Source of the DNA: Streptomyces sp. P3
Lineage (GTDB): Bacteria; Actinomycetota; Actinomycetes; Streptomycetales; Streptomycetaceae
NCBI RefSeq assembly: GCF_003032475.1
Contig: NZ_CP028369.1
Location: 6,510,001 to 6,574,000, forward strand
Length of the DNA stretch: 64,000 nt
Direction of reading: 5' to 3'
Below, one piece after another: positions 1,501-32,124 of this stretch (within the stretch, counting starts at the first letter, position 1; every line of letters starts with the position of its first letter). The notes under the pieces were generated by a model. The model was not told the origin of the DNA. It worked only from the letters and a program-made list of their open reading frames with translations, and did no database searches. The translations under genes were made by a program, and so were the position numbers.

Positions 1501-1683
1501 CCGGGTCCTCCGCCACCACGGTCTCAGCCTGCTCGTCCGTACCCTCGGTCATCGCTACCACCTCCCTGGCTCAACGCCGTCCCGGCGGCCCCGTCGTGCC
1601 GCGCACCTCGTACACGTGCCGACACGACGCGTACAGCGGGCCGCGTCGGTGCGTCACCACTGGTCACGCTGCGCGAGCGAGAG

Positions 1684-6036: not shown

Positions 6037-6182
6037 GGCGTATCCCGAGAGCGCGACCGGCGCGGATCCGCCGAGTACCGAGCCATTGGCGAGCAGAGTT
6101 CTGTCGTCTTGGGAGTCATGACGCTCGTTCGACGCTCCAGAACGACCAAACGCCAGATCCGGAGGACGTCCGGGAGGGCGGA

Positions 6183-6308
6183 CCGGCGGGTGACTCGACC
6201 ATCGTCGAGCTCTGCATCAGCTACCTGGGCAAGAAGGTGGACCCCCCCGGTCGGACGTAAAAAAGCATCGAGACCGTGCGCGGGCTGGGGTACCGGTTGT
6301 CGAGCTGA
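6183..6308 (+). pseudogene. C-terminal winged-helix scrap of an OmpR-family response regulator
   Basis: The frame reads DSTIVELCISYLGKKVDPPG, then a TAA at about 6258, and resumes in the same frame as KSIETVRGLGYRLSS before TGA at 6306-6308. This is the recognition helix and final wing (TVRGLGYRL) of an OmpR/PhoB-type output domain, with a nonsense codon inside. The receiver domain and most of the effector domain are absent. The rest of the 6037-6440 gap contains nothing else I recognise. Confidence 0.6.
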
Positions 6309-6475
6309 GCGCCGGACGGATTTTTCGGTTATTGCCGGAGGAGCTGTTCAACTGCGGCCGTCGACGTCCCGGAGCCGGTCGACTACCGTAGCGAATCGCC
6401 CATCCGTCGGGAAAGCTAATCCAGCACTGGTGGACGGCATTTTTGAGGGATCACTTGTCGCGCGAGGGGGCACCA

Positions 6476-6922
6476 ATGAGAATCCGCAAAGCCATTTCCA
6501 CAGCGGTCGCCGTGACGACCGCCGCCGTTGGCATGATCACCGCAGCCGGCGGCCCGGCCCAGGCCGACTGGGTGCCACCGTTCAGGAAGTGCACATCATT
6601 CGATCAGAGTGGATTCAAAGGCGACGTCTGTGTGGATCGGGTCGGCCTTGGACCACAAGAATTCCTCGGCCTGGGTCACATCCAGGCATTCCCCGGCAAA
6701 TGCGCCAAATTACGGGTCGACGTCGTTGACCCCGACGGCACGGCGGTGCATTCCGTGAACAACATCCCCTGCGCCACCGGGGCGGTCGGTACCGCTCGGT
6801 ATCTCGCCGAGCTGCACGTGAACGGCAGGGCCTATGCCCGCCTGGTCGGCTTCGACAGCGCAGGAAACACGCTGCTGTCGGTCAACTCCGAGATCATCGT
6901 CTCCCCGTTCGACAACCACTGA
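6476..6922 (+). CDS. Small secreted protein of unknown function
   Basis: The 148-residue protein starts with a classical Sec signal peptide: basic MRIRK, a hydrophobic core (AVAVTTAAVGMITAAGG) and a likely signal peptidase I site after AQA. The mature part is about 120 residues and has four cysteines (near CTSF, DVCVD, GKCAK and IPCAT), which could form two disulfides outside the cell. The ATG at 6476 follows a GAGGGGG ribosome-binding site. An in-frame start at 6443 exists but would put polar residues ahead of the signal peptide. I do not recognise a domain. It stands alone between a response-regulator scrap and an IS1380 remnant, and no partner is evident. Confidence 0.7.
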   Translation: MRIRKAISTAVAVTTAAVGMITAAGGPAQADWVPPFRKCTSFDQSGFKGDVCVDRVGLGPQEFLGLGHIQAFPGKCAKLRVDVVDPDGTAVHSVNNIPCATGAVGTARYLAELHVNGRAYARLVGFDSAGNTLLSVNSEIIVSPFDNH

Positions 6923-6988
6923 GGGTCTATACGACCGGGCCTGTCCGGCGGATCATCGGGAGCCTCCGCGACGCGGACCATGAGTGGC

Positions 6989-7712
6989 TAACCTCGATCG
7001 TTCATGAGTCCTCGCCGGTTCGCTGACGGGGACTCCGCGTTTGTGTGGTGCGGTCTTTTCGGGGTTGGGGCAGGGCGAGGGTTCGGCTCTCGCGTCGGAT
7101 GGGCGCCGGGTTCCACTTCCCCGGTGTGTGGTGATGCGGGTCGTCGGGACGGTCGATGTGGCTGGTCAGCCGGGGTTCGGCAGGGCGTGGAGCCTGACGG
7201 TCGCGTGGCTGATGGCGGCGGTCCAGAGCCATCGGGTGGGCAGGCGGAGCCAGCGGCGGCGGCCGGTGTTCACGAGCTGCGCGGGGGCGGAGAGCAGCCG
7301 AAGCCGGAGCTTCTCGGGCTCCCAGCGGCGGGCGTCGCCGCTCAGTGCGAGCATCTGCATCCAGGCGAGGAGGTCGAGTGCGAGGGAGACGATCTCCAGC
7401 CAGATCCGGTTTTGTGCCGTGTCGTGCAGGGGCGGATTGCGCAGGCCTGTGGCGCGGGCGCCTCGGATGTGGTCCTCGCAGCGGGCCCGCCTGCGGTGAC
7501 GCAGTTCGAGGTCGGCGAGCTGGCCGCCTTTGGTGTTGGTCGCGAAGCAGGTGAGCCGCAGTCCGTCGAGGTCGGTGAAGCGCAACTGGGTGCCGGGGTG
7601 CGGGCGTTCCTTGCGGACGATCAGCCGCATGCCCGTGGGCCAGGTGCTCAGGTCGGGCATGTCGGTGTGCCACGACAACTCGGTCAGGGTGCGATCGCCC
7701 TGCAGTTCGGGC
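6989..7712 (-). mobile_element. 3' remnant of an IS1380-family insertion sequence
   Basis: The element keeps its outer end, with the terminal motif TAACCTCGATCGTTCATGAG at 6989-7008, and the last ~40% of its transposase gene on the reverse strand. The other half is gone: at about 7712 the sequence switches abruptly to an unrelated endonuclease fragment. An almost identical terminal motif stands alone at 22421-22440. Confidence 0.65.
7166..7712 (-). pseudogene. C-terminal part of an IS1380-family transposase
   Basis: About 180 residues match the end of IS1380-type DDE transposases: GMRLIVRKERPHPG, RFTDLDGLRL, CFATNTKGGQLADLELRHRR, then QNRIWLEIVSLALDLLAWMQ and a basic tail. Intact family members are roughly 460 residues, so over half is missing, including the first catalytic aspartates. 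The apparent first residues (MPELQ) come from the junction, not from a true start. Confidence 0.7.
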
Positions 7713-13194: not shown

Positions 13195-16100
13195 TCACCT
13201 GACGGTGCGGTAGGCGTTGATCATTGCTTGGTTGACGGTGTTGCCCCTGGTGTCCGTGGCTGTGGCCTTGAACGAGACGGAGCCGGGAGTCCGGGGCTGG
13301 GCGAGGGTCACGGAGCGCTTGCCGTTCGCTGTTGTGCGGACCGGTGTGTTCTTCCAGGTACGGCCGCCGTCGTACGACACCTTCACGGTCAGCGACCGCA
13401 GGGCGCCACGGGCGGCCGCCGCGCCCGAGACCGTCACCGGGACGGTGATCCGGGTGCCCGCCTTCGTGGTGCTGTCCAGGCTGAGCTTCGGGGTGAAGCG
13501 GACCGCGGACAGCGGCATGGTGCCGATCTCGGTGCTGGGGACGGGCCGCAGGGTGAAGTCCCAGACCGCGGACATCCGGGTGCCGACGCGGTAGGTCGCG
13601 GCGGGGCGGGAGGCGTCGATGCTGAGCCGGTAGCGGGCCGTCGGGCTGTTCTTCAGCCCGGTTGCCTGGAGGATCTCGCAGATGTCGAGCTTCTTGTCGA
13701 CGAGTGTGGTGCCGCCCGCGGTGAACCGGGTGCGGTAGGCGGCTTCCCCTGCGCCGGGAAAGCCCGTGTGGCCGGGGCCGTCGGAGAACATCGGCACGCA
13801 GATGGAGTAGTCGCCTCCCAGGTACTTGCCTCCCCAGTCCCCGTCGCCGCCCGGGCCGAACACGCCGGTGTTGTACGTCTGCTGGTAGGTACGGCCCGGC
13901 TGGTAGCGGCGGTCGGTACCGTAAAGGGCGCCCAGGTCCGGGCGGGCGGCGGATCCGAGGGCCATGCCCAGGTTCCAGCGCAGGCCGTCGGCCGTGGACA
14001 CGTACTGGACGCCGGAGCTGTACGGCGCCTTCCGTGCGGCCCCGTCGAGGGCTGAGACCACTCTGCCCAGTATGTCCCAGCCGGGCACGGACCAGGAGGC
14101 GTTCGGGGTGGCGCGGGTACTCGCGGCGACCGAGCCGGTGGCCGTGACGACCTTGGAGAGCCCGCGCGCCGGGACGCTGCGCTTCAGGCCGGTGAACATG
14201 GTGCCCTTGCGGGTGACGACCAGGTTGTACTGCGGGTCTTTGGCGTCGCGCTGCCAGATCCCGCCGTACTGGGCGATGAAGCCGGCGGCCGGAGCGGCGG
14301 GCCCGGCCTGGGCCAGGTAGAAGCGGTCGCTGTCGGTGTCAACGGAGCCGGCATAGTCGTACGCGGGATCGGCGCCGCGGGCGGCGATGACCGTCTGCGC
14401 GGCCCGGAGCTTGGCCCGGGTGTCGGGCGCGGTGACGTGGACGGGCCTGGCGGTGCGGGCGTCCAGTGTGAGGGTCTGGTCTCGGTTCATCACCAGACCA
14501 GGCGTGACCAGCCAGGACAGCTCGTCGCGGCCCCCGGTGGTGCTCTCGATCCGGGTGTCCAGCAGGTAGCGGCCCTTGGGCAGGCGGACGGTGACCCGGC
14601 CGTCGCCGTCCTTGTCGCCGGAGTCGTACGGGCGGTACATCCGGCCGCTGTTCAGGCCGGCGATGGCCAGGTCGGTGCCCGAGGCGGGCTTTCCGTCGCG
14701 GCCGGTGGCCTTCAGGGTGAGGTCGTACGACTCCACCTCGCGCACGACGCCGACGGCGCTGCGGACTGTCTGGCCGCCGCCGGTCGCGGTGACGGCAGCC
14801 GACCAGGCTCCGTCGGCCAGGCCGTCCGCGTGCGTGTCGGCGGTGACGGTGGCCTCGGCCGTGCCGCCCGCCGGAATGGTCAGCCGCGCGGGCGAGACCG
14901 TGAACACCTCTGCGGCCGGGGCGGCCTTGCCGCGTGGGTCGACCTGGTCGGCGAGGGCGAGGTCGAGAGTGACCGGCCTGTCGCCGGAGTTGCGGTAGGT
15001 GAGGGTGCGGCTGACCGGCCGGTCGTCGGCATGCGGCCACTGCTGTGTGCCGAGGTCGACAGAGGCAGGGGCGGCACTCACCGTCTGGTTGATCGCCCGG
15101 CCGAGGTCGACCCGGCCGGCGCCGACCGTGTAGGCGCTCTGCCCGGACAGCGGCTTGGCGGAGGCCAGCAGGGCCGACTTGATCCGCTGCCCCGTCCAGT
15201 CGCGGTGTTGCTGGGCCAGGATCGCGGCGGCGCCGGCCGTCGCCGGGGTGGCCATCGAGGTGCCGGACATCGAGACATAGCCCGGGCCCGCGGGGTCGCC
15301 ATCGCTGCCGTGGGCCGCCTTGGCGGCGACGATACCCACGCCGGGCGCGGAGAGGTCGGGCTTCAGGGCGCTCTCCGCAGTCGGGCCCCGGCTGGAGAAG
15401 CCGGCGGGCTTGTCGTCGCGGTCGACGGCGGCCACAGTGAGCGCCTGCTCGGCGGAGCCGGGGGAACCGACGGTTCCGTCGGTGGGGCCTTCGTTGCCCG
15501 CGGCGATGGCGAACAAGGTGCCGGAGGACTTCGACAGGTCGTTCACCGCCTGCTCGATCGGGTCGTCGCCCGTGAAGTCCGTACTGCCCAGGCTCATGTT
15601 GACGATCTTCGCCTTCTGCTGCACCGCCCACTGCATGCCGGCGAGGATGCCGGAGTCCTCGCCGTATCCGGCGTCGAACACCTTCCCTACCAGCAGCCGG
15701 GCGCCCGGCGCGACGCCGACGTGCTTGCCGCCGCTCCGGGCACCGGACCCGGCGATGGTGGAGGCCACGTGCGTGCCGTGTCCGACCTTGTCGTCCGTGC
15801 TGCCGCTGCCGGAGAAGTCCTTCGCAGCGGCGATACGGCCCTTCACGTCGGGGTGGGTGGCGTCGATACCGGTGTCCAGTACCGCGACATCGACGCCCTT
15901 GCCGTCGTAACCGGCCTTCCACGCGACCGGGGCGCCGATCTGCACCGGGCCGCCCTTCGGGTCCGGGGTGCCCTGGGGCGCCGAAGTGGCCTTCACCGCC
16001 GGGGTGTCGGCCGCCGTCGTCGTCCGCCCACTGTCCGTGCGCAGGTTTCTACGGGCGTCGAGCCAGATCCGGTCGACTCCGGGTGCGGTCGTCAGGTCGT

Positions 16101-16740
16101 CGGCCGGCCCGGCGAGCGGGTCGGTCAGTGCCTTGAAGACCCGACCGGCTCCGGGTTTGGACGCGGTCATCGACTCCCCGCGGATCACGGGCAGTTGCCG
16201 CCGCACGTCGGCGTCGGCGCTCCGCACCGCCCGCCGGGCGCTCTGCTGGGCGCCGCCCTTCTCGTACGACACGATCAGCGGCACGTTCCGCCGGTGCGCG
16301 TCGTCGTAGTCGGCCGCCGCGAGCCCCGTCACATCGAACAGCCGCCGGTCCAGGCGCCCGTCGGCAAGCAACCGGCTCACGTCGGCCGGTATCACGTACG
16401 TGTGCCCCGCGAAGTGCTGTATGGACAGCGGCACCCCGCCCCGTCCGGCACCCCGGGTCACCTTCGTGACCCGCCCCTTCGCATCCAGACCCACCGTGTC
16501 CCCGGTGATGAGCGTGATCTGCTCCACGGTCCGGCCCGCGCCGGCCCGCTCTCCCTCCAGGGCCGCCGGCACCGCACCGGCCCGACCGCTCTGTGCCGAC
16601 GGTGCGGCGGCCGCCGGCAACGCCCCGGCGACTAAACCGATCAGCGTCAGGGAAGCGGCGCCCGCGAGCGCCGCCTTCTGCCTTCCGCTTCCTCGCGCGA
16701 CCCCCTTTCGGACGTCGTTCTCCCTGCGTGGTTTCCTCAT
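13195..16740 (-). CDS. Large secreted S8-family serine peptidase (subtilase)
   Basis: This extracellular subtilisin-like protease has 1181 residues. The ATG at 16740 follows GGGAGG by eight bases. An N-terminal signal (twin-basic start, hydrophobic AALAGAASLTLIGLVAGAL, AAAA cleavage region) precedes a pro-region of about 250 residues. The catalytic domain has Asp289 (VAVLDTGID), His324 (GHGTHVAS), the oxyanion Asn in AIAAGNEGP and Ser495 (SGTSMATP). The remaining ~650 residues are beta-rich: Fn3-like segments (EVFTVSPARLTIPAGGTAEA), a Carboxypeptidase-regulatory-like piece (DKDGDGRVTVRLPKGRYLL) and an Ig-like end (VKVSYDGGRTWKNTPV). It probably degrades extracellular protein during differentiation. 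It is monocistronic with a hairpin terminator. The substrate is unknown, and all catalytic residues are intact. Confidence 0.93.
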   Translation of the reverse strand: MRKPRRENDVRKGVARGSGRQKAALAGAASLTLIGLVAGALPAAAAPSAQSGRAGAVPAALEGERAGAGRTVEQITLITGDTVGLDAKGRVTKVTRGAGRGGVPLSIQHFAGHTYVIPADVSRLLADGRLDRRLFDVTGLAAADYDDAHRRNVPLIVSYEKGGAQQSARRAVRSADADVRRQLPVIRGESMTASKPGAGRVFKALTDPLAGPADDLTTAPGVDRIWLDARRNLRTDSGRTTTAADTPAVKATSAPQGTPDPKGGPVQIGAPVAWKAGYDGKGVDVAVLDTGIDATHPDVKGRIAAAKDFSGSGSTDDKVGHGTHVASTIAGSGARSGGKHVGVAPGARLLVGKVFDAGYGEDSGILAGMQWAVQQKAKIVNMSLGSTDFTGDDPIEQAVNDLSKSSGTLFAIAAGNEGPTDGTVGSPGSAEQALTVAAVDRDDKPAGFSSRGPTAESALKPDLSAPGVGIVAAKAAHGSDGDPAGPGYVSMSGTSMATPATAGAAAILAQQHRDWTGQRIKSALLASAKPLSGQSAYTVGAGRVDLGRAINQTVSAAPASVDLGTQQWPHADDRPVSRTLTYRNSGDRPVTLDLALADQVDPRGKAAPAAEVFTVSPARLTIPAGGTAEATVTADTHADGLADGAWSAAVTATGGGQTVRSAVGVVREVESYDLTLKATGRDGKPASGTDLAIAGLNSGRMYRPYDSGDKDGDGRVTVRLPKGRYLLDTRIESTTGGRDELSWLVTPGLVMNRDQTLTLDARTARPVHVTAPDTRAKLRAAQTVIAARGADPAYDYAGSVDTDSDRFYLAQAGPAAPAAGFIAQYGGIWQRDAKDPQYNLVVTRKGTMFTGLKRSVPARGLSKVVTATGSVAASTRATPNASWSVPGWDILGRVVSALDGAARKAPYSSGVQYVSTADGLRWNLGMALGSAARPDLGALYGTDRRYQPGRTYQQTYNTGVFGPGGDGDWGGKYLGGDYSICVPMFSDGPGHTGFPGAGEAAYRTRFTAGGTTLVDKKLDICEILQATGLKNSPTARYRLSIDASRPAATYRVGTRMSAVWDFTLRPVPSTEIGTMPLSAVRFTPKLSLDSTTKAGTRITVPVTVSGAAAARGALRSLTVKVSYDGGRTWKNTPVRTTANGKRSVTLAQPRTPGSVSFKATATDTRGNTVNQAMINAYRTVR

Positions 16741-17154
16741 GCGTACGCCCTCCCAAGTGCCCGTGCAGTCACGGGACATGAACGAAAATCAAACGGTCAC
16801 AGCCCGTGCTGCCCGGCCGCCCGAAGCGACTCTCGTCTCGTAAATGACCGACCGACTCCCCCGAACGGCCACACCTCTCGGCCCCGCGAAGGCCCGCCTC
16901 ATCCGATCGGCCATTTCCGCGACACTTCGGAACGCGAGTTGGCCCGGCGTCGTCTCAGCTGAGTGCGGCCCCATGACAGGGCACGTGGCCCATGACGACG
17001 GCCGGGCACCCGTACGGGACGACGGCACTGCCGCGCCTGGCTCGGGTCTGTACGGTGAGCGGCTCTGTCACGTAATCGGTGGTAGCCCTGCGTGGTGATC
17101 ACTGGAGGAGGAGGCGGTGGCGGAGCAGGGGCAACCCGGCTCGGCCGTGCATAT
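16741..17154. other. Intergenic region upstream of the subtilase, no gene seen
   Basis: The first ~100 bases upstream of the peptidase start are relatively A/T-rich for this genome and must hold its promoter, but no convincing -10/-35 pair was found. The rest contains only short frames without ribosome-binding sites or recognisable protein. Confidence 0.4.
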
Positions 17155-17425: not shown

Positions 17426-17699
17426 GCGCTACGGGGGCCTTGGCCCTCCAAGCCGCTGGCCACGACAGCACCGAGGCCCTGTAGCGATTGGCGATGATGT
17501 GCGAGGAGGCCGGGGATCGGGAGGGCGCAGGAGTTTTGGCACGCATGGCCGCCAATCACGGCAAAGCCCACGCCCTGCACGGACTTCCCAAGCTTCCCAA
17601 TGCCCTGTGGCCATGTGAAGACGGGAACCGTTCCGGTCCTGACCTGCGGCAATGTCTCCAGCGAGGCCGCAGGCGGGGCCCACCGTCGGCCGAACGGTC

Positions 17700-18200
17700 C
17701 GGGACGGGGCGGAGCCGCCGTAGTGCTCCGAGCCGGGGAGAGCCCGGCACATGGGGAAGGGCGGCAGCGGAATCGAGAGGGGAAGGAGACTGCAATGCCG
17801 AAAGACGCGCCGCTGAACAGCGGTGCACCAGGGGCCCCGATGGGGTCTCGCCAGCGGGTATCGGGGATGCAGGCCAAACGCTGCGCGAGGACATAACCGA
17901 CGTGCTGCAACCGCTCGGTCTTCGTCTCTCCGAGGCGAAGACGCAGGTGGTGCACATGTCTGACGGGTTCGACTTCTTGGGGTTTCGCATCCAGTGGCGC
18001 CGCAAGCGGGGAACGGACAAGTGGCACGTCTACACCTTCATCGCTGACCGGCCCATCCGGCAGCTGAAGGACAAGATCCGTGCCCTGACGAACAGAACGT
18101 CGCAGCAGAACCCCAGGGACGTGCTGATCAGGCTCAACCAGATCATGCGCGGCTGGGCCAACTACTTCAAGCACGCGGTCTGCGAAACGGACCGGTGGCA
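17700..18200 (+). mobile_element. Internally deleted group II intron with its maturase
   Basis: Two pieces of a bacterial group II intron lie side by side. First comes a G-rich leader (GGGGAGAGCCCGGCACATGG) like the intron RNA just before the intron-encoded protein, followed by the start of that protein at ATG 17795 behind GGAAGGAGA (MPKDAPLNSGAP, VSGMQAKRCAR). Second, in another frame, comes its C-terminal thumb/maturase part from about 17897 to 18195 (LGLRLSEAKTQVVHMSDGFD, LGFRIQWRRKRGTDKWHVYT, RLNQIMRGWANYFKHAV). The reverse-transcriptase palm with its YADD motif is missing, so the element cannot move. RNA domains V and VI were not identified downstream. Confidence 0.65.
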
Positions 18201-18389
18201 ACACCGGCACCGCGCTCCGTGCCGACTCAACAGGCACCGCCGCGCCGCCGAACACCACCAACACGCCCTAACCAAGATCGACTGCATCAACCAGCGGGAC
18301 AGCATCTTGACGAATGCGGGCGATTTGCTCGGTTTTGCTGCATCACCCCCCGGGGTGACCAGTGGAGGGGATGAGCTACGCTTCTATTG

Positions 18390-18405
18390 CTGGACAAAAG
18401 TCCAG
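18390..18405. promoter_or_regulatory. Probable TetR operator palindrome
   Basis: The sequence CTGGACAAAAGTCCAG is a perfect inverted repeat with 6-bp arms and a four-base centre, 26 bases upstream of the TetR-family start. It is the right size and place for autoregulation by that protein. No direct evidence of binding is visible in the sequence. Confidence 0.5.
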
Positions 18406-18431
18406 GATGTTTTCCCTCGCGGAGAAGACTC

Positions 18432-19001
18432 ATGACCCCGTACCGCACCCCACTCCCCATGGACGGCCGCCGCGCGCGCGGACAGGAGTCGCGCCGCCGG
18501 TTGCTGGAAGCTACGCTCCGGGTCATCGCCCGTGAGGGGCCCGCCGCGGTGACACACCGGGCCGTGGCGGCGGAGGCGGACGTGACGAAGTCGCTGGCCA
18601 CCTACCACTTCGCGACGGTCGATGAACTCCTCACCGCTGCGCTCGTCGAGAGTGCGGAGTTCTATGCGCGACAACTGGCGGAGGATCTTCCCTCGGACTG
18701 CTCGCTGGGTGAACTGGCTCAGCACCTGACCGACGCCTTCAACGGGCATCGGGCCGAGTGGCTGGGCGCGTACGAGCTGTTCCTGCACGCGGCGCGGTCC
18801 CCCGTGCTACGGGAGGCCGCTCGGATGTGGGTCGACTGGGGCAGGGGCTTGGCCCGCCGATACACGGATGATCCCGTCGCAGTCGACTGCTTCGTGTCCG
18901 CTTTGGACGGCTTCGCCATGCACGCGTTGCTGTCAGACGAGCCACTCGACGTAGAGCGACTCGCGGGGATCTTCACGTATCTCCTTCCTGAACCTTCGTA
19001 G
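18432..19001 (+). CDS. TetR-family transcriptional regulator
   Basis: The 189-residue regulator carries a standard N-terminal HTH (RRRLLEATLRVIAREGPAAV, HRAVAAEADVTKSLATYHF) followed by an all-helical ligand/dimer domain of the TetR_C type. The chosen ATG (18432) has a GGAGAA ribosome-binding site 6 to 11 bases upstream. A start at 18387 would overlap the palindrome that probably is its operator. A strong hairpin lies after the gene, and then a small protein and an APC permease follow on the same strand, so the permease is a plausible target. The ligand is unknown. Confidence 0.85.
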   Translation: MTPYRTPLPMDGRRARGQESRRRLLEATLRVIAREGPAAVTHRAVAAEADVTKSLATYHFATVDELLTAALVESAEFYARQLAEDLPSDCSLGELAQHLTDAFNGHRAEWLGAYELFLHAARSPVLREAARMWVDWGRGLARRYTDDPVAVDCFVSALDGFAMHALLSDEPLDVERLAGIFTYLLPEPS

Positions 19002-19053
19002 GCGGCTTCGCTACGCGGTCTCGCCGCCTCAGCCTCCTGTCCATCCCCCCACT

Positions 19054-19098
19054 GTGCGAACCCGCGGCACCGCTCGCTTCACCGCCGCGGGTTCGCAC
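19054..19098 (+). terminator. Hairpin terminator after the TetR gene
   Basis: The 14-bp arms GTGCGAACCCGCGG and CCGCGGGTTCGCAC are perfectly complementary around a 17-base loop, 53 bases past the TetR stop. The remaining bases up to 19357 show no gene, although the promoter of the next small gene must lie there. Confidence 0.7.
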
Positions 19099-19357
19099 AT
19101 CCTCACGGATCAGGAAAGACCAAGGGACATGCAACCCCTCATTGATCGCGCTCGTCCGTGCCGTCGGGGCAATGTCGATCTGGCCAGGCCCGTCCATGGC
19201 CGGTCCCCACAAGCTTGAGGGGCACCACGCCTGCTCCCTACCACTCCTGTCTGGATGCCCCATCGCGCCGCCAAGCAGTGCGCTTCCTTCAACGCCGTCC
19301 ACGGTTGTTCCGTTCGGCTTACCCCTACCCCCCGACCTCCGCGAGAAGGAGCACAAC

Positions 19358-19684
19358 ATGGCGGACATCTGGGTATTCGGCCAGGATCTGCGCCGGCCCG
19401 GCGAGACAACGCTCGTGCGTGCCGACGCCCTCACCCGAATCTACGCCTCCGGCGAAATGGTGACAGTTGCGGGGCTGGAGTCGGACGAAAGGATCGCACT
19501 GGCCCACCGGCGCGCGGTGCAGGGTGAGTTCCTGCCTCCCGGCTTCCACCTGAACCTTGTCGCGGCGCTGAGCAAAGCCCGAATTGAGGCGGCCAGCGGT
19601 CATGAAGACCTGGTCCTCCTTGCCGCCGCGGACGACGAAGGCCAGTGGCACTGGGGCATCCACACCGTTTCTGAGCTGTGCTGA
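19358..19684 (+). CDS. Small hypothetical protein
   Basis: The 108-residue cytosolic protein (starts [16 protein letters not shown], ends [11 protein letters not shown]) has no signal or membrane segment and no domain I recognise. The ATG at 19358 has an AAGGAG ribosome-binding site at good spacing. Composition is balanced and codon use fits the genome, so it is likely real. It ends 37 bases before the APC permease start and may be co-transcribed with it. Confidence 0.6.
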
Positions 19685-19721
19685 AACGCACCGAGTCTTA
19701 CTGAGACCACTGGAGTACCTG

Positions 19722-21683
19722 GTGTCCACCACCGCCCCTTCCCGACCGGACCCTTCCGCGCAGGGGCGCCTGCGTGCCTGGATACTGCAGGGCCTGCCCG
19801 ACAGAGCACGACAGCAGCCGACACCGGGCGACGACCTGAAGCAGGCCCCCAGGGGACAGCGGTGGTGGCGGGTCATGTGTCTCACTGGTGTGGACTACTT
19901 TTCCACGCTGGGTTTCCAGCCCGGGACGGCAGCGCTCGCGGCGGGACTGATGTCACCGGTGGCGACCGTCGTCCTGGTCCTTGTTACGTTGGCGGGCGCC
20001 CTCCCGGTGTACCGACGTGTGGCGCAAGAGAGCCCCCACGGTCAGGGATCGTTCGCCATGCTGGAACGGCTGCTGTCGTCCTGGCCGGGCAAGTTGTTCA
20101 TCCTGGTGCTGTTGGGGTTCGCCGCCACCGACTTCATCATCACCATCACGATGTCGGCGGCCGACGCTTCGACCCACCTGATCGAGAACCCCCACTTCAA
20201 TGGCTGGCTGCACGGCCATCAACTTCCCGTCACTCTGATCATGGTGGTGCTCCTGGGAGTGGTGTTCCTCAATGGCTTCCAGGAGGCGATAGGTGTCGCT
20301 GTTGTCCTGGTCGGCGTCTTTCTGACACTGAACCTCGTCCTCGCGTTCGTGGGGTTGTGGCACGTGGTCTCCGAACCCCACGTAGTCACGGACTGGTCGC
20401 AGGCGCTCACCGCTGAACACTCGAACCCGCTAGCCATTGTGGGCATCTCGCTGCTCGTCTTCCCCAAACTGGCCCTGGGACTGTCCGGCTTCGAGACCGG
20501 CGTCATGGTGATGCCGCACATCCGCAACGAGCACGGTGACATACAGCAGTCACCGGCCGGCCGCATCCGCGGCACGAAGAAACTGCTGACCACGGTCGCA
20601 CTCATCATGAGTGGATTCCTGATCACCAGCAGCTTTCTCACCACACTGCTGATCCCGCAAGCAGAGTTCGAGGTCGGGGGAGAGGCGCGGGGACGGGCAC
20701 TGGCCTATCTGGCCCATGAGTATCTCGGGTCGGCCTTCGGAACGGCCTACGATCTCGCCACCATCCTGATCCTCTGGTTCGCCGGCGCCTCGGCGATGGC
20801 CGGGCTGCTCAGCCTGCTGCCTCGCTACCTTCCCCGCTACGGCATGGCCCCGCACTGGGCGCGTGCGGTACGCCCGATGGTGCTGGTCCTCACCCTCGTT
20901 GCCGTCCTCATCACGTGGATCTTCGACGCCGACGTACAGGCGCAGTCCAGCGCGTACGCCACCGGCGTGCTGGTCTTGGTCACCTCGGCAGCCGTCGCCG
21001 TGACCATCGCCGCCCGCCGCGCCCGCCAACGTGGCCGAACCCTCACCTTCGGCGTCATCTCGGCGGTCTTCGCTTATACGACGGTGGTGAACGTGGTGGA
21101 GCGGCCCGACGGTGTGAAAATCGCCGCATGCTTCGTCATCGGCATTGTCATCGTCTCCCTCCTGTCCCGCTGCTTCCGAGCCTTCGAACTGAGGGTGACC
21201 GGTGTGGTTCTGGACCCGGCGGCGGACCGTTTCCTGTGTGACATGGCCGACCGGCGGATCCGCCTGGTCGCACATGATGGCGAACATCGAGACGCCACAG
21301 AGTACGACGCCAAGCTCCGACACCTGCGCACTGACAACGACCTGGCCGACGGCCACGACGTGGTCTTCGTCGAGGTCACGGTCCGTGACCCGTCGGACTT
21401 CGAGAGCGAGGTTCACGTACGAGGTCTGCACGTCCACGGCCATCTGGTCCTGACCCTGGAGAGCGCCGCCGTCGCCAACGCGCTGGCCGCACTGCTGCTC
21501 CATGTACGCGATGCCACCGGAGAGATACCGCACATCTACTTCGAGTGGACCGAAGGCAGCCCGCTCGGCCACCTCCTCAAGTTCCTGCTTCTGGGCCGGG
21601 GAGATATCGCCCCCATCACCCGGGAGATCCTCCGCGCGTCCGAACCGGACCGTACCCGCCGCCCCCGCGTCCACGTCGGCTGA
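19722..21683 (+). CDS. APC-superfamily permease with a soluble C-terminal domain
   Basis: The 653-residue integral membrane protein starts at GTG 19722 with GGAG five bases upstream. About 12 transmembrane helices span residues ~45-500: the first half contains [20 protein letters not shown], matching the unwound helix 1 of APC transporters, and later [14 protein letters not shown], typical of the amino-acid/polyamine permease fold. The final ~150 residues are hydrophilic ([20 protein letters not shown]) and probably form a cytoplasmic regulatory domain. It is likely a proton-coupled amino acid or cation transporter, with undefined substrate. It follows a small hypothetical gene and a TetR regulator, which may control it. 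Confidence 0.8.
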
Positions 21684-22446: not shown

Positions 22447-22556
22447 CGGTTCGAGCGGGCAGATCGTTCTTCAAAGGAGCGAGACGGCAATTCTGAACCG
22501 CAGTCGGAGGTGGCGGCACGGGAGCCTAATCGGTTTCCGCGCCGCCACCTTGTTCG

Positions 22557-22667
22557 TCAGCGGCGCCGGTCGGTTCCCATGGCCGACCGGGCGTCCCGAA
22601 CGAATTGCCATGCGCGCCCGGCGCTGAAGCCCGCAAGGACAAGATTGATAGCGATCAGAACCTGCAT
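22557..22667 (-). CDS. Possible 36-residue membrane-anchored peptide
   Basis: On the reverse strand an AAAAGGGG site precedes ATG 22667 and a short frame reading MQVLIAINLVLAGFSAGRAW, then a charged tail. One hydrophobic helix is visible. It lies alone in a gap of about 480 bases (22447-22925) that otherwise shows no gene. It may be chance. Confidence 0.25.
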   Translation of the reverse strand: MQVLIAINLVLAGFSAGRAWQFVRDARSAMGTDRRR

Positions 22668-22925
22668 CTGTACCCCTTTTCCATGCTCTTGCCGGGCGAT
22701 TGCCCCGCTGAAATCAAAAGTACGGAGGGCCTTCGCTGGTAAATAGGGGTTGCCGCTCGGCTTGGCGCTCATCTCGGTTCTTGGCCCGAGCGTCAAGTCG
22801 AGCGGCAAGTCCTGGACCGGTCCGCGGCGATTTCTTACCCGCCCGACAGGGAGAAGCCCGGGAAGGGCGTTCGGTCTCCGGCGGGTCGGGCGCAGCGCAT
22901 TGTCGAGTGACCTGGTGCGCAAGGG

Positions 22926-23150
22926 GTGGTGCAGGAGGCCGCGGAGCGATCGGGCGGGCGACTCCGGTGGATCGGCAAGGAGGGGAAGCCAGTCGCCGGC
23001 CACCTCGTGTCGGTGCTTCGAAGCGGCGGTCCGGCCTATGATCGGGCTGTCTTGGTTATGCCCCGACTCGTCGGGCAGGCCGACTGGTTCGACGAGCCCC
23101 CTGCGCGCTGTCTCGACAGTGCGCCGCCTGATGGGGCGCAGTGCCGGTAG
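22926..23150 (+). CDS. Possible small ORF upstream of the large NTPase gene
   Basis: The frame begins at one of two adjacent GTG codons (22926/22929) next to AAGGGG and reads 74 residues (ERSGGRLRWIGKEGKPVAGH, VLRSGGPAYDRAVLVMPRLV) with protein-like alternation. It stops 72 bases before the NTPase start. It is not recognised. It could be a truncated gene, a small partner, or noise. Confidence 0.25.
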   Translation: MVQEAAERSGGRLRWIGKEGKPVAGHLVSVLRSGGPAYDRAVLVMPRLVGQADWFDEPPARCLDSAPPDGAQCR

Positions 23151-23221
23151 GTGCGTCCCGACCAGGCCCGGGAGGGTGGTCGGGTGGGGAATCTCCGCAG
23201 ACTCGGCCGGTGGAGGTGAAG

Positions 23222-26200
23222 GTGTCGTTCGATGCCCGGAACGTCGAGGCCCTGGTGGGCGAGTTGGGCAGCGTGGTGAACAGACTGGTTCCTGGCGCGT
23301 TCGGCGGCGTCGCCAGGGACGGCCAGAAGGCACAGGAGCCGCTGCACATCCCCGTGTTGTGCGAGATCGCGGAACGGAGCTTTCCCGCCGAGTGGCGACG
23401 GGGAGACCGGGTTCATGCGCTTGAGTTGACGCTCAGGCGGGCGATAGGCCGACTCGAAGGACAGTTCGCCGGCAATTCGACGTGGAGACCGAGCAGGCGG
23501 ATCACCAATGAAGAGGTGGCTCTACGCTATTTCAACTTCGACGGTTCGACGGATCTCGGAAGAGTCGAGTCCATCGACTTCGATGACGCAGCGTTCGACG
23601 GCCTCGGAGGCGATCGCTACGTCAAAGTATTTCACGCGTTGAAGAATGCGATAGCGTTTGACATCAGCGACGTGAGACTTCGGGTTTATCTGAAAGACCT
23701 TCGTCACCGACTCGCCGCAATTATTCTCGACCCGGGTTTTCCCTTCACCGCGGCGTCTGAGTCCGCGCCGGCAGGCGAAGCGTCCGCCGCCCGGTCGGTA
23801 TCGGACGATGGCTACGGTGTGGATGTCCGCGAGTTGCTCGCCATCTCTGACGTCTATGTGCGCGACATCCGCATCGATTCCATGCTCCATGTGGTGCGCA
23901 CCCTCGAACCCGATCTGCTGGAACAGCTCAGGAATACGAGTCGTCCGTGGCCGCGGGTGGTCGTCGGAGAGGCCGGGTCGGGCAAGAGCACATTGCTGTG
24001 GTCGCTCCACCAGAGCCTGGCCGCCGAGCCGGACACAGAGCCGCTGCTGCTGCCCGCTACGTGGTTACTGCGGGACCGGGGTGACGAACCTGCGGAAAGA
24101 CTCGCCGAGTTGCTGCAAAGGATCGCCCGGGCAGGAAGAAGGCCGGTCCTGCTTCTCGACACCGCCGACCTGATGCTTCACGACGAAGAGGCGCGCCAGC
24201 GGCTGTTGCGTCTTCTCAACTCCGTCCATACGGCCGGGTTTTCCGGCCTGTATTCCACCAGGCCCCAGGAGGCCGCACTCCTGTCGGACGACCATCTGCG
24301 TCGTTACGACCTCCAGCCGTACGACGACGCCGAGCTGGATCACGCTGTCGCCGCCTTGGTGACTCGGTATTGTCCGGACGTTCCTCACGCGGAGGTCACC
24401 AGGCGGGTGCGGCAGGCAACGGCGCGCGGCCTGCCGGTCGCCGAGGTCTGCCGGAGCCCGCTGCTGCTGCGCATGCTGTTCGACCTCTCCGCGCCCTCCG
24501 AGCCCGAACTCGGTGATGTCGACGTCACCCGGCTCTTCGACGCCTACTGGCAGCGGCGAGTGATGCGTGACGCCCGTACGGATACCGAGACCGGCCTGCG
24601 TGCCCGTGCGGCCGACAACCTGAGCGCCCTGGCCGGCCACGCAGCCGTCGGATTGCTCGGCTCCGGCCTGCCGGGGCTGCCCGCCGCCACGCTGCGCGAG
24701 ACGACCGCCGTTGCGGCCGGATCATCCGGCGATCCCGCGTCGCTCGAGGAGGGGCTCGCGATCCTCACCGAACGCGGTGTGCTCGTACCCGGCGGAGAAC
24801 AGGTCGGATTTCTCCACCAGACCATGTTCGAGTTCGCCGCCGCCAAGGGTCTGCTCGCCCGGCCGGATCCAGCGACGATCGGCACGCTGACGGCCCGGGC
24901 GACAAGCCACGGCGGTGACCTGTTCGTCGGCGCCGTCCTCGAACAGGTCCTGATTCTCGCGGGTGCGAACCCGCTTCTCCGGGATGCGGCCCGCGATGCT
25001 GTCAACGCTCTGGTCACCTCGGACAGCGAGGCGGTCCAGGCGATCGGGCTTGTGGCCTGGGGTCACTATCCGGTGCTTCTTGACGACGCCACCAACACCC
25101 TGCGAACAGCCGGGGCATCGGCGCTGGAGCGCACGACGAGAATTCTCCCCACCATCGCCGCCAAGCCGACGGGGCAGACCATCAGCCAGCTCCTGCTCAT
25201 CTGGCAGTCCACGAACGAGTCGGATGTCCGTACCGCGGTGCTCGACGCGTTCGGCCGTCTCGCCCTGCACACACCGCGAGACGTGGCCGAGGCGGTGGAC
25301 TACCTGCAGCCGCTCCACACGTTCGCGGGAACCACAGTCACCCCCGCGATGCGACGCAGTTTTCTCGGTGTCCTTCATGCGATCTCCTCGCAGGCGCGCC
25401 TTCTCGTACGGTCCACGCTCGTCGCCATGCTCATGAGTAGTGACGACCGGGAATGCGTCGAGCTGGAGTACCTGGCACGCCAGTGGTCCTCCATCGGCGA
25501 CGACCACCTGCTGGCCGAGATCGTCCGGACCCTTGACGCCGAGGGGCCGCCGAGCCGCACCGTCGCGGCCGGGTTCGGGAAAGTCATCGCCGCCGAATGG
25601 CACCGGGCGGGCACCTGGCACGGTGCCGAGCCCTGGGCGGACTTCCTCGCACACGCCATGCACCCCGGCTCCGCCGCGCTCACGCTGCGGAACGAGGCGA
25701 CGCTGCACGCCGTCGGCGCCTTTGCCGTCACCACGGACGACGACCGCTGCGTCCGCATCGCCGTCGAGGCCCTGCTCGACGCATCGGACCCCCGTGTGCG
25801 CGACGTCATCTGCCACAGCGTGCTCCGCGGCATCCTCGCCTCGGGATCACACGCCACCGCTGTCCTGGACACTGCCGTCAGGTCCTCACTCGCGACCATC
25901 GGGTACGCCGCGCAGAAGGGCAGGATCGACGAGCGCCAGCAGCTTCTGCTCGAGCTGCTCGCCCAAGCAGATCTCCCCGGTACGTCCATAGCCCGAGTCC
26001 TCCCGCCGCATCTCGAAACCCAGGACTGGAAGGCCGACCACCGCCTCCTGCGTCTCGCGTCGGCCGCGGCCGATCACGGACACCCCACCGCTCAGCACCT
26101 GCTGGAAGAGGTGAGCCGCACCCCGCAGATGCTGTCGACGGCTCAGCTCGACGCGCTCTTCTCCACTCGAACCGCGCACATGCCCCGAAGCGATGAGGTC

Positions 26201-27178
26201 TTTGACGCCATCGTGTCCATCGCCACCCGGACCGGGCGGACGGCGGACCTGGAGAAGATCGTCGAGTCCGCCGATCGACGCGATGGACGTGTGGACCTGT
26301 ACGGTCCCTCGCTCCTGGCCCACGCCCGAGAGCTGATGGCAGGCACCGATGAGTCGAAGCGCAGTGGCAGCCGGTTCCTCGCCGGACTCATGGCCAAGAT
26401 CGACACGGAGATGGCGTGGCCCGAACTACGAGTCGTCCTCGACGACGTTGACGACCCGAAGATCCTCGTTCGGCTCATTCGGACGCTCTGGCAGCAGACT
26501 CCCGCCGGGGACGTCTCTGCCCAACTCGACTACCTCGGCCGGTTCATCGAGGTCCGGCCCGGTGCCGACAGGCCGGTGGCACGTCCACCCGGACGCCTGA
26601 CCGACATCTCGGTCGCCGTCGCGTCGGCCTGGGCGATGCTCTACATCCTCGGTACCCGCACCGAAGCCGCCACCGACCAGTGGCCTGTGGTGCGGACGCT
26701 CGGGCTCTACGAGGTCGAAGGGGAGGAGATCTTCGTCGAGGGCAGGAGGTTCCTGATCGTCTGCGACTACCTCGCGCGCCTCGGCCCGGTGGACCCTCAC
26801 CGGGCCGGGGCCCACCTCCTCGACTACCTCTCGGCTCTCTCGACCGGTGAATTCCATGGCAACGACCCTGCATGGTGGCGACGCGAACTCCGTATCGCCG
26901 TCCAGCACGCCTGCGCACTCAGTGATCACAGGATCATCGAATCCCTTGTCGCTGTCTGTGGCATCCTCGACGACGGGATCGCCGAGGTCATCACCACGGC
27001 CATTGCCGAGCGCCACTACGCCGCCGCGCGCGAGCACCTGCAAACACTCGGCCGCGCCGACATCACGGCCACTCTGCGGAGCTTCCTTCTGGAGCTCATC
27101 CGCAGCCACGACCGCAGCTTCGGCACCCGGGCCTTTCCCGAGGTCTTCGCGGCAGTCACGGGCCGCGCTCCGAGGTGA
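23222..27178 (+). CDS. Large orphan P-loop NTPase, STAND/NACHT-like, with helical-repeat C-terminus
   Basis: The 1318-residue protein starts at GTG 23222 with a perfect GGAGGTGA five bases upstream. Residues 1-~200 form an N-terminal region I do not recognise, with a likely EPLHIPVLCEIAER segment and no membrane helix. A P-loop follows at 249-257 (GEAGSGKST), a Walker B near 308-314 (PVLLLDTAD), and a sensor-like GFSGLYSTRP. A winged-helix-like region (AILTERGVLVPGGEQVGFLH) comes next, then about 800 residues of alpha-helical, HEAT/ARM-like repeats. This order (effector or sensor, NTPase, WH, repeats) is that of STAND ATPases such as Avs/bNACHT antiphage proteins, where the repeats sense a target. 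Function is inferred from architecture only. A rare TTA codon at residue 282 suggests bldA dependence or foreign origin. Confidence 0.75.
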   Translation: MSFDARNVEALVGELGSVVNRLVPGAFGGVARDGQKAQEPLHIPVLCEIAERSFPAEWRRGDRVHALELTLRRAIGRLEGQFAGNSTWRPSRRITNEEVALRYFNFDGSTDLGRVESIDFDDAAFDGLGGDRYVKVFHALKNAIAFDISDVRLRVYLKDLRHRLAAIILDPGFPFTAASESAPAGEASAARSVSDDGYGVDVRELLAISDVYVRDIRIDSMLHVVRTLEPDLLEQLRNTSRPWPRVVVGEAGSGKSTLLWSLHQSLAAEPDTEPLLLPATWLLRDRGDEPAERLAELLQRIARAGRRPVLLLDTADLMLHDEEARQRLLRLLNSVHTAGFSGLYSTRPQEAALLSDDHLRRYDLQPYDDAELDHAVAALVTRYCPDVPHAEVTRRVRQATARGLPVAEVCRSPLLLRMLFDLSAPSEPELGDVDVTRLFDAYWQRRVMRDARTDTETGLRARAADNLSALAGHAAVGLLGSGLPGLPAATLRETTAVAAGSSGDPASLEEGLAILTERGVLVPGGEQVGFLHQTMFEFAAAKGLLARPDPATIGTLTARATSHGGDLFVGAVLEQVLILAGANPLLRDAARDAVNALVTSDSEAVQAIGLVAWGHYPVLLDDATNTLRTAGASALERTTRILPTIAAKPTGQTISQLLLIWQSTNESDVRTAVLDAFGRLALHTPRDVAEAVDYLQPLHTFAGTTVTPAMRRSFLGVLHAISSQARLLVRSTLVAMLMSSDDRECVELEYLARQWSSIGDDHLLAEIVRTLDAEGPPSRTVAAGFGKVIAAEWHRAGTWHGAEPWADFLAHAMHPGSAALTLRNEATLHAVGAFAVTTDDDRCVRIAVEALLDASDPRVRDVICHSVLRGILASGSHATAVLDTAVRSSLATIGYAAQKGRIDERQQLLLELLAQADLPGTSIARVLPPHLETQDWKADHRLLRLASAAADHGHPTAQHLLEEVSRTPQMLSTAQLDALFSTRTAHMPRSDEVFDAIVSIATRTGRTADLEKIVESADRRDGRVDLYGPSLLAHARELMAGTDESKRSGSRFLAGLMAKIDTEMAWPELRVVLDDVDDPKILVRLIRTLWQQTPAGDVSAQLDYLGRFIEVRPGADRPVARPPGRLTDISVAVASAWAMLYILGTRTEAATDQWPVVRTLGLYEVEGEEIFVEGRRFLIVCDYLARLGPVDPHRAGAHLLDYLSALSTGEFHGNDPAWWRRELRIAVQHACALSDHRIIESLVAVCGILDDGIAEVITTAIAERHYAAAREHLQTLGRADITATLRSFLLELIRSHDRSFGTRAFPEVFAAVTGRAPR

Positions 27179-29331: not shown

Positions 29332-32124
29332 TCACAGATCGTCGAACAGGTCGCGGAGCTGGTTGCGGCTGCTGACGCCCAGTTTCGGATACACGTTGTA
29401 GAGATGGGAGCTGATCGTGCGCGGGGAGAGCAGCAACTGCTCCGCTATCTCCCGGTTGCGCAGCCCTCGGGCGGCCAGCCGCACGATCTGGCGCTGCTGG
29501 GCGGTCAGTTCGGACAGCGGATCGGTCGGGGCGGGACCGGTGGCCACGCCGCTCGCCCGCAACTCGGCGCGGGCCTCCTCGGCCGGGCCGGACGCGCCGA
29601 GCCGGGTGAACGTCTCCAGCGCCGTGGCCAGGAGCGGGCGGGCGTCCAGGGGCCGCCGCCGTCTGCGCAGCCACTGCGCGTAGTGGAGCCGCGCCTGAGC
29701 CCGGGCGAGCGGCCACTGATCGCCGACCGGGTTCACCGCGGCGAGCCGGAAGTGGTGTTCGGCGTCCTCGGTCTTCCCGGTCAGCGCGGCGGCGTGGTGC
29801 ATCAGCAGCGTCATCCGGATGGTCGGACGTTCCCCCGTCCCGGCGCGCACCCTTTCGAGGACGTGCCGCGCCTGCGCATGGTGGCCCGTCCGCTGGGCGG
29901 CCGCGGCGAGATCGGCCACCGACCGGGGGGACAAGAAGTAGTGCAGCGCTGCGCCGTCCTCGTCGAAGAGGGACCGAAAGCAGCGGAACGCGGCGTCGAA
30001 GTCGCCCGCCGCCATGGCGGACGTGCCCGCGGCCCGCAGGAGGCGTGCGTGGGTGGCGCGGTTCTCCGGTAGCGCGAGGGCCGTCCACGCCTGGTCCGGC
30101 GGCATGGACGCGGATTCGCCGCGCAGCGCCCGCAGGGTCGCCCGGAGCGCCTCGACGTCGATCTGCATGTGCTGCCACTTGTGCACCGCGGCCAGCGACG
30201 CCGCCCTCTCCAGATGCTGGTCCGCCTCCGCCCAGCGGCCGGTGTCGATCAGCGCCGCGGCCGTCACCGTGAGCACGCTGGCCATGGAGCCCGAGGCGCC
30301 GTACGCGTCGAGCACGGGGCGCATCCGGCGGTAGGTCTCCACGCACAGGTCCGACTCGTCGGCCAGGAAGGCCAGCGCGCTGACGGCGACGCCCCGGGTC
30401 ATCTCCGCTATGTCGAGCGGCGGCCGCGGCGAGCCCGGCCGCCGGCGGACGCCCCGCAACAACTCCGTGGCACGCGTCGGTTCGGCCACGCTGAGGGTCA
30501 CGGCGAGCACCGAGTCGGTCGCGTCGGTCGTCCTCAGTTCGGCGTAGGCGGAGCCCCGGTGCGCGCCGTCCACCTCGTTCAGCAGCGCGGTGATCGGCTG
30601 CCCGACCTCCGGCAGGCCCGACTGGAACGCGACGGCGCCGAGCACGCTGACCAGAGCGACCACCGTGAGGGCGTCCTCGGGCGGGTCCGGCTGCAGCGCG
30701 TTCATCAGCGTCTGGAACGCCTCGCGCTGGTGGCCGGACAGCGACAGGGCCATGCCCGCGGCGCACGCCGCCATGCCCAGCAGGTCCCGGTCCTCGGTCA
30801 GCGCGGTGATCTTTTCGTAGAGTTCGCAGACCCAGGAGGGGTCACCGGTGTTCTGGGCGGCCCGCAGCGCCTTCGCGTAGCGGCGCGCCCGGTCGGCGGC
30901 CGCGGGGGTGCACTCGGCGGACCGCTGCAGGGCCTCGCCCGCCGCGTAGAACCCGCCGACCCGTTCGGCGAGTTCGGCGGTGTCCTCCAGAGCCGCCGCC
31001 ACGGACTCGTCGTGACCGACGCAGGCGGCGGCCAGGTGCCACGCGCGCCGGGCCGGGTCGGCCGTGAGGGCGGCCGCCAGGTCCCGGTGCGCCTGCTGCC
31101 GGAGGTAGGCCGGCGCCGCGTGGTAGGAGGCCGCGCGTGCCAGCGGGTGACGGAAGACCACCCGTTTGTCCAGGACGGTCACGAGACCCGCCTCCTCGGC
31201 CGAGGCCCATGCCCAGAGGTCCGGCCCGGCGCCCGCGGCCGCCATGATCGTGTCGAGGTCCTCGTCTTGCGAAGCCGCCGCATAGAGGATCAGCCGCTGG
31301 GTCATCCCCGGAAGGTCGCGCAGGCGGGCGGCGTACAGCTCCTGGATGCGTTCGGTCTGCGGCAGACCGCCGCCCGACAGCACGCCCGCGCCGCCGTCCG
31401 ACTGCGCGGCGCGGCACAGTTCGATGAGGGCCAGTGGGTTTCCGCCGGCCTGCCGCAGCAGTTCGATCCGGGTCCGGCCGGTGGGAACGTGCGGCTGGGC
31501 GTCCACGAGTGCCACCGCGTCCCGTTCGGTCAGCGGCCCCAGCAGCAGGGTGGGCAGGGTCGGCGCCAGCCCGTCGGGGGGAGTCTGCCCGCGTGCCGCC
31601 AGCAGCACGTGCACGTCGGCGGCGGCGAGGCGGCGCATCACGAAGCCGAGCACGTCGAGGGAGTCCCGGTCGAAGTGCTGGACGTCGTCGACCGTCAGCA
31701 GGACACGGTGCCGACGTGCGACGTCGGTCAGCAGCGTCAGGACGGCGACGCGCAGCAGCATGGGGTCGGACGGTCCCTCCGCGGGAGCCACGCCGAACGC
31801 CGTCTCGAGCGCCCCGCGCAGATGGCCGGCCAGCGTGGCCGCCTCGGGCAGGACGGGGAGGAGCAACTGGTGCAGGGAGGCGAAGGACTGCCGCGACTCG
31901 GCCTCCGTGCCCTGGCACGCCAGCACGAGCGCTCCGCGGGCCCGCGCGTGGTCGACGGCGACCTCGAGCAGCCGTGACTTGCCCGCGCCGGCCTCGCCGA
32001 GCAGCATCAGCATCCGCTGTTCGCCGTGCCCCTCGACGCTGCGCACGAGGCGGGCGATCTCGGCCTCCCGGCCCACGGGAGGCGTCTTCGGTCCGGACGG
32101 GTCCACGCCGCCGCTAGCCCCCAT
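29332..32124 (-). CDS. LAL-type (large ATP-binding LuxR) transcriptional regulator
   Basis: The 930-residue regulator has an N-terminal AAA_16-type ATPase: PPVGREAEIARL, Walker A at residues 43-50 (GEAGAGKS) and Walker B in RVLLTVDDVQHFD. A long TPR-like helical middle follows, and a C-terminal LuxR HTH sits at ~868-925 (LTAQQRQIVRLAARGLRNRE, then LLLSPRTISSHLYNV). This is the MalT/LAL layout common in Streptomyces pathway-specific activators, where ATP and a ligand drive oligomerisation on DNA. It sits upstream of a hydrolase and an AraC gene on the same strand, about 1.2 kb from the 3' end of the polysaccharide operon. Either could be a target, but nothing in the sequence links them directly. 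Confidence 0.92.
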   Translation of the reverse strand: MGASGGVDPSGPKTPPVGREAEIARLVRSVEGHGEQRMLMLLGEAGAGKSRLLEVAVDHARARGALVLACQGTEAESRQSFASLHQLLLPVLPEAATLAGHLRGALETAFGVAPAEGPSDPMLLRVAVLTLLTDVARRHRVLLTVDDVQHFDRDSLDVLGFVMRRLAAADVHVLLAARGQTPPDGLAPTLPTLLLGPLTERDAVALVDAQPHVPTGRTRIELLRQAGGNPLALIELCRAAQSDGGAGVLSGGGLPQTERIQELYAARLRDLPGMTQRLILYAAASQDEDLDTIMAAAGAGPDLWAWASAEEAGLVTVLDKRVVFRHPLARAASYHAAPAYLRQQAHRDLAAALTADPARRAWHLAAACVGHDESVAAALEDTAELAERVGGFYAAGEALQRSAECTPAAADRARRYAKALRAAQNTGDPSWVCELYEKITALTEDRDLLGMAACAAGMALSLSGHQREAFQTLMNALQPDPPEDALTVVALVSVLGAVAFQSGLPEVGQPITALLNEVDGAHRGSAYAELRTTDATDSVLAVTLSVAEPTRATELLRGVRRRPGSPRPPLDIAEMTRGVAVSALAFLADESDLCVETYRRMRPVLDAYGASGSMASVLTVTAAALIDTGRWAEADQHLERAASLAAVHKWQHMQIDVEALRATLRALRGESASMPPDQAWTALALPENRATHARLLRAAGTSAMAAGDFDAAFRCFRSLFDEDGAALHYFLSPRSVADLAAAAQRTGHHAQARHVLERVRAGTGERPTIRMTLLMHHAAALTGKTEDAEHHFRLAAVNPVGDQWPLARAQARLHYAQWLRRRRRPLDARPLLATALETFTRLGASGPAEEARAELRASGVATGPAPTDPLSELTAQQRQIVRLAARGLRNREIAEQLLLSPRTISSHLYNVYPKLGVSSRNQLRDLFDDL

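Follow-up and report, generated by a model that had tools for sequence, protein, structure and literature searches.

An NLR-like STAND protein of Streptomyces sp. P3 with an exchangeable and probably non-enzymatic N-terminal module

The stretch of 64,000 nucleotides considered here, positions 6,510,001 to 6,574,000 of contig NZ_CP028369.1 of Streptomyces sp. P3 and hereafter called the window, contains at 23222-27178 on the plus strand a gene for a large switch protein of 1318 amino acids (aa), which resembles in its architecture intracellular immune sensors from animals and plants. On balance the protein is probably an NLR-like sensor for conflicts with invading elements, encoded by a mobile gene and equipped with an output module that is not an enzyme. 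Sequence and predicted structure display a NACHT-type core, a long helical solenoid and an exchangeable front module, and sequence comparisons display a rare distribution, relatives near conjugation genes and an N-terminal head distantly related to a Macro-associated domain. A role in defence is established for STAND proteins that combine a sensor with an oligomerising NACHT module and an N-terminal output (PMC12169576; PMC12931631), and bNACHT clade 14 confers protection in the absence of a readily discernible effector domain (PMC12169576). Effector-associated domains (EADs), which belong to such conflict systems, are small and mainly helical and have no enzymatic activity (PMC7159879, PMC8195603). 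AfsR is a SARP-NOD-TPR regulator and represents a transcriptional outlet (PMC10936776). In the titles and abstract openings of a limited literature set, neither this STAND family nor the M domain described below is named.

The gene and its NACHT-type core

The open reading frame (ORF) is intact over 1318 codons and starts with a GTG at 23222, which has a GGAGG a short distance before it; the frame is open without a stop back to 23141, and the database record of the protein (P0002, 1322 aa) starts four codons upstream of this GTG. The protein is the sole match to its own sequence in the 9.85-Mb genome and is encoded by a single-copy gene. A protein search yielded 35 matches including its own record, and a full-length copy of 92% identity is present in S. 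tauricus. The GC fraction at third codon positions is 0.81 compared to 0.88-0.95 in the seven downstream genes (0.88-0.94 in the four nearest ones). A single TTA codon is present at residue 282, which in a preliminary description of the window was taken as a hint of developmental control; since the codon occurs also in the related Streptomyces locus L002 but not in locus L003, bldA control is, as judged from these codons, not a fixed trait.

NACHT/NLR-like STAND NTPases are characterised by a P-loop, a Walker B aspartate, an RP sensor and an FHxxxxEFxAA motif in the winged-helix domain (WHD). The entire set is present in the protein, with the P-loop GEAGSGKST from residue 249, LLLDTADLMLH at 310, YSTRPQE at 344 (RP sensor at 347) and the WHD motif FLHQTMFEFAAAKGLL at 530. 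Residues K255, D313, D316, R347, P348, H532, and E537 are unchanged across the 23 aligned sequences, and the ending DTADL of Walker B departs from the NACHT consensus. Residues ~205-1318 were modelled by AlphaFold as an NLR-like STAND/NACHT core with a predicted local distance difference test score (pLDDT) of 87, in which a nucleotide-binding domain (NBD) and a winged-helix region are followed by about 760 residues of helices. The part comprising the NBD, helical domain 1 (HD1) and the winged helix extends over residues 206-560 (23837-24901, plus strand) and is assigned by its motifs, invariant columns and VIA matches; the predicted fold is the NBD-HD1-WHD arrangement of NACHT/NLR-like STAND NTPases. 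The best VIA matches of the core model are inflammasome NLR chains, which align across about 410-430 residues, Avs5 and Avs4. Residues 561-1318 (24902-27175, plus strand) are almost all helical in the model and form a C-terminal solenoid, presumably the sensor, whose lowest conservation is found at residues 701-850. Motifs and model agree with the STAND/NACHT plan of the preliminary description, including the P-loop at residue 249 and Walker B near 310; its about 800 residues of helical repeats compare with about 760 helical residues in the model.

Known families are matched by the protein at low scores. It stays below the Pfam cut-offs of NACHT (25.7 bits, 1.2e-5; cut-off 26.7), AAA_22 (25.2 bits; cut-off 27) and nSTAND_NTPase5 (24.4 bits; cut-off 34), and LRR, Trans_reg_C and BTAD gave no match in the Pfam scan. 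At E<=0.01, just the PADLOC models PifA (5.6e-4) and DpdH (1.1e-3) matched, both around the P-loop, and EruA, an antiphage NACHT protein of NCBIfam, reached 18.2 bits over residues 233-266 only, compared to a cut-off of 1000 bits.

The N-terminal domain and its relation to the M domain

Residues 1-205 (23222-23836, plus strand) constitute a helical N-terminal domain, here designated type A. Pfam holds EAD models; with these and the helix-turn-helix (HTH) models included, no Pfam family matched residues 1-243 at E<=5, in line with the earlier statement that the N-terminus belongs to no recognised type. Structure prediction, which had been proposed for this region, gave two usable models out of five, with a helical fold plus a small hairpin (pLDDT 71.7, predicted template modelling score 0.69), no convincing match to solved folds and no sign of a housekeeping fold. 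In a nine-row alignment of type A, 12 residues are invariant, all of which are F, L, W, D, I, R or A; they include one Asp only and no His, Cys, Glu or Lys. Because an enzyme signature is lacking, the type-A N-terminus looks like a non-enzymatic adaptor or DNA-binding output module.

A shared pattern in several unnamed heads was spotted by eye and the head of protein P0029 was followed up. It represents a common domain, which is matched by a two-row profile in 45 of the 293 genomes of the order and which we designate M domain, a name for this Macro-associated helical domain of actinobacteria used in this report only. M opens proteins of mostly 360-450 aa (about 390 aa), and a Pfam scan of five of them gave a Macro match in four (7e-6 to 3e-3, one above the cut-off) and none in the fifth. 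A profile of 31 M domains matched type A in hhalign with 85.9% (local) and 92.2% (global), compared to maxima of 0.8 and 0.2% in 60 column shuffles, 0.1 for the reversed alignment and at most 10.1 (L025) for 17 other N-terminal types; the M family was chosen after the likeness had been noticed by eye, so that this match is not a blind one. When the M profile was searched with hmmsearch against 75 N-termini, the top ranks after P0029 were mostly type A (P0009, L003, and P0010 about 4e-5; window 0.012-0.015), with matches spanning about the same 40 profile positions, and P0034 (4e-4) and L025 (4e-3) were interleaved with them. The N-terminus of the window protein therefore seems to be a strongly diverged representative of the M domain, which otherwise stands ahead of a Macro domain. 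The relation is a distant one, since profile A6 had no match at E<=10 in the P3 genome and missed even the copy in the window; profile A2 found this copy alone and no second type-A domain (7 candidates scored).

The genome profile searches score few candidates per genome, namely 2, 7 or 14, with 7 for type A in family and phylum and 14 for the P0029 head. With the type-A profile, 4 of 394 genomes of the family (one match taken as chance) and 3 of 396 of the phylum (two taken as chance) were matched, and the remaining matches were located solely in front of this STAND core. Among short proteins only one truncated copy was found, and among long proteins only five close copies, the protein's own record being one of them. 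In view of its non-enzymatic look and its likely kinship to M, the suggested new effector domain is better regarded as an adaptor or DNA-binding output. That the N-terminus is a novel catalytic toxin released on oligomerisation is improbable: in sister proteins its place is taken by nuclease-like or nucleosidase domains, but the residues invariant in the nine rows, the strong divergence of type A and the fact that its M relatives precede a separate Macro domain argue against an enzyme.

Within the Streptomyces family, locus L124 (4677-11405) carries genes for a histidine kinase, an M-Macro protein, an unnamed protein of 216 aa, a RES protein (1.7e-17) and a CHAT protein of 957 aa (6e-54), and a similar operon is found in L123; both look like NAD/ADP-ribose conflict systems.

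Exchange of N-terminal modules

A genome scan identified 45 loci with relatives of the gene. The core is constant among these homologues and the N-termini vary: type A is found in the window and in L002-L004, type B in L005 and L007, SARP/BTAD in L006, L008, and L011, DAC/DisA_N in L010 and L012 (1e-14 for L010), and PNP_UDP_1 in L014 (8e-31), with which eight loci cluster, one of them cut by a contig end. A Cap4-like (L013) and an HNH-like N-terminus (L038) scored below the cut-off, and the remaining ones are membrane-like (L018), of further unnamed types or very short. Type B (9491-10186 in L005, and relatives) comprises ~180 aa with the motif SQxCRFSWAKWQ; Pfam gives it only a match below the cut-off to FR47 in L005 (0.008) and nothing in L007.

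For a tree of the core, which was calculated by a quick search, 61 rows were picked from 35 proteins and 46 locus proteins after removal of near-copies and partial sequences; the branches of L018 and L010 are very long, and L011 and L030 are possibly joined falsely. On this tree the N-terminal labels require 20 changes, the minimum being 18 and the mean of shuffled labels 43.9, and consequently the modules, as read from the tree, persist with their core for some time and are replaced occasionally. The window protein belongs to a clade of 25 rows (support 85) with eight type-A, 12 type-B and three SARP heads, one short head and one of the P0029 type, and the PNP, DAC, Cap4, and HNH heads are located in a separate clade of 32 rows.

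The upstream repeats and a transcriptional output

The occurrence of SARP-headed proteins among the closest core relatives makes a transcriptional output a serious rival, which we regard as possible, if somewhat unlikely. The protein would then be a STAND transcription regulator like AfsR or MalT, whose degenerate HTH head recognises the 12-bp repeats that precede its gene and whose switch controls its own transcription or that of its mobile element. These repeats form a dyad at 22745-22813, with tandem arms at 22745-22770 and 22788-22813, and an upstream counterpart exists in the other four type-A loci of the comparison; in the window, L002, L003 (Actinomadura), L004 (Actinacidiphila), and L068 alike, TTGCCGCTYGRCTTGSCGCTC-N15-17-GAGCGGCAAGTCRAGCGGCAAG or a diverged form is present upstream. 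In its exact form the tandem pattern is present in 8 of 127 loci, corresponding to three distinct places, all of type A (L003, L004, L068), and the repeats of the window and L002 deviate from it. Within the window, the pattern has two matches at up to 3 mismatches compared to none in shuffles. The dyad may be an operator, used either by the STAND protein or by a regulator of the element. A regulon is not apparent, however: at up to 3 mismatches the genome contains 6 matches compared to 9 and 11 in the controls, and the local dyad, with a single mismatch, is the only copy with fewer than 3. Further points against a regulator are that the tandem 8-mers found upstream of M domains, in 7 of 31 stretches, include no two alike, that the head has no Pfam HTH match at the threshold given above, and that nuclease-like and nucleosidase domains occupy the equivalent place in members of the wider family. 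The adaptor-type output is the reading retained below.

Mobility and genomic neighbourhood

In a blastn comparison (E<=1e-20), only the block 22485-27160 is shared with L002, at 93.8% identity, and 22512-22818 still resembles an intergenic region of L004 (73%). Mutually homologous genes for relaxase-like (Replic_Relax) and coupling proteins lie within 10 kb of the gene in 5 of 48 loci (47 places, as L004 and L069 are, judged by length, on the same contig), namely L005 (Kribbella), L007 (Nocardia), L025 (Gordonia), L037 (Mycobacterium), and L068, three of which also contain an MT-A70 methylase. These loci carry one STAND core with three N-terminal types (A, B, and that of L025), and their putative assignment to conjugative elements is based on the relaxase and coupling-protein genes. 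From such comparisons, the window gene is regarded as rare and horizontally moved, and the mobile history proposed earlier is supported by the narrow shared block and by the conjugation genes near relatives.

Among the type-A loci a single recurring neighbour was seen, an upstream gene for a protein of ~190 aa. It is whole in L068 (HEAT-like by eye, no Pfam match), distributed over different frames in L004, reduced to a relic in both the window and L002, and not seen in L003. The orphan state of the STAND gene, as previously described, is supported. The relic in the window (22926-23150, plus strand) was recognised by a C-terminal end shared with the L068 counterpart (WFDEPPARCLDS vs. WLDEPTARYLDS). 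A small ORF for a membrane-like peptide at 22557-22667 on the minus strand (36 codons from an internal ATG, longer from an earlier TTG) has a counterpart in L004. It is very improbable that the STAND gene is itself a mobile-element gene in decay which no longer functions in strain P3; the upstream relic, the conjugation genes of L068, whose relaxase and coupling protein were searched for and not found in the P3 genome, and broken related copies (G141 in two pieces; P0038 with 292 aa) would fit decay, but the intact frame with its preserved motifs and the 92% identical full-length copy in S. tauricus do not.

Outside the close relatives, Rhodococcus and its kin, a sister group with short heads, have a TetR-like gene in eight loci and a ~480-aa gene in seven, and for the PNP group, 5-8 loci from one Streptomyces group have several neighbouring genes in common; such recurrence speaks for vertical descent in both. 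The conserved metabolic neighbourhood that had been named as an argument against a defence role did not appear for close relatives, fixed neighbours being kept in the Rhodococcus-type group. Genes around the loci were called by a home-made codon-position rule, and the neighbour scans comprised 102 of the 128 genes listed for nine close loci, with matches reported without the member and without a random-region control. In L005, a Shedu (SduA) protein (18915-20234; PDB 8ti8, 1.9e-14) is encoded ~5.5 kb downstream of the STAND gene, and a pooled PADLOC scan of the loci gave one SduA match (5.5e-127), the member not being named. Locus L004 contains two tRNA-Ala(ggc) genes 1.9 kb apart (5267-7258) near a broken type-A copy, possibly a duplicated integration site.

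Elsewhere in the window, Wadjet type II genes end 17 kb upstream of the STAND gene. In this system, previously described as a relic, JetC2 (1418-4687) matches its profile only from position 388 on and lacks ~390 N-terminal residues of it, and JetD2 (4678-6036) matches nearly whole. From the reported zone of mobile-element scars one was confirmed, a group II intron maturase fragment (GIIM domain) at 17494-18435. A large subtilase (1194 aa), which in PADLOC matches the subtilase and IetS models, is encoded at 13195-16779, and a STAND-like, large ATP-binding regulator of the LuxR family (AAA_16 and GerE) at 29332-32124, 2 kb downstream of the gene on the other strand.

Proposed function

In the proposed mechanism, the solenoid would keep the protein closed and sense a phage or plasmid product or the resulting damage, and binding of ATP would allow monomers to build a wheel or filament. 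The N-terminal helical modules clustered in this way would function as an EAD-like adaptor, which recruits or activates a partner rather than acting as an enzyme, with cell arrest or loss of the invader as the possible outcome. A bolder extension, which we consider unlikely, is that NLRs on actinobacterial conjugative elements combine one switch with exchangeable enzyme or non-enzyme heads (A, B, SARP) and drive either recruitment into an NAD/ADP-ribose conflict pathway of the Macro-RES-CHAT kind or transcription from their own 12-bp operator, the output being a genetic programme and not direct killing.

The comparison connects NLR-like switches with an unnamed helical domain known from Macro/RES/CHAT operons, and places one NLR core with three N-termini near conjugation genes in five actinobacterial loci. 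Two questions thereby become accessible to experiment, namely whether the heads of bacterial NLRs may be adaptors or DNA-binding modules in place of enzymes, and whether such NLRs serve mobile elements against competitors. Since bNACHT clade 14 protects without a readily discernible effector, the question of non-enzymatic output is a general one.

Comparison with known systems

The window protein shares with bNACHT proteins and animal NLRs the tripartite plan, the NACHT-type NBD-HD1-WHD and the helical solenoid, and differs from them in its sub-cut-off NACHT match, the absence of LRRs, the DTADL Walker B and a head without a Pfam name. Unlike Avs/AVAST proteins such as Avs4 and Avs5, it has no PADLOC Avs match, and no nuclease, Sir2 or other known effector was found in it. 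AfsR and other SARP-STAND regulators are related through the SARP/BTAD heads in members of its core clade, whereas the protein itself lacks a Trans_reg_C or BTAD match. Its head resembles EADs (Kaur et al. 2020, 2021) in its non-catalytic appearance, its helical nature, its location at a protein end and the fusion of its relatives to Macro, which belongs to the NAD/ADP-ribose sphere, but differs from them in having neither a Pfam match nor a second copy found in the same genome. The M-domain proteins of the Macro/RES/CHAT operons of Streptomyces relatives possess an N-terminal domain distantly homologous to this head; there, however, M begins a protein of ~390 aa, usually with a Macro match, and in the window protein the corresponding domain precedes a STAND NTPase.

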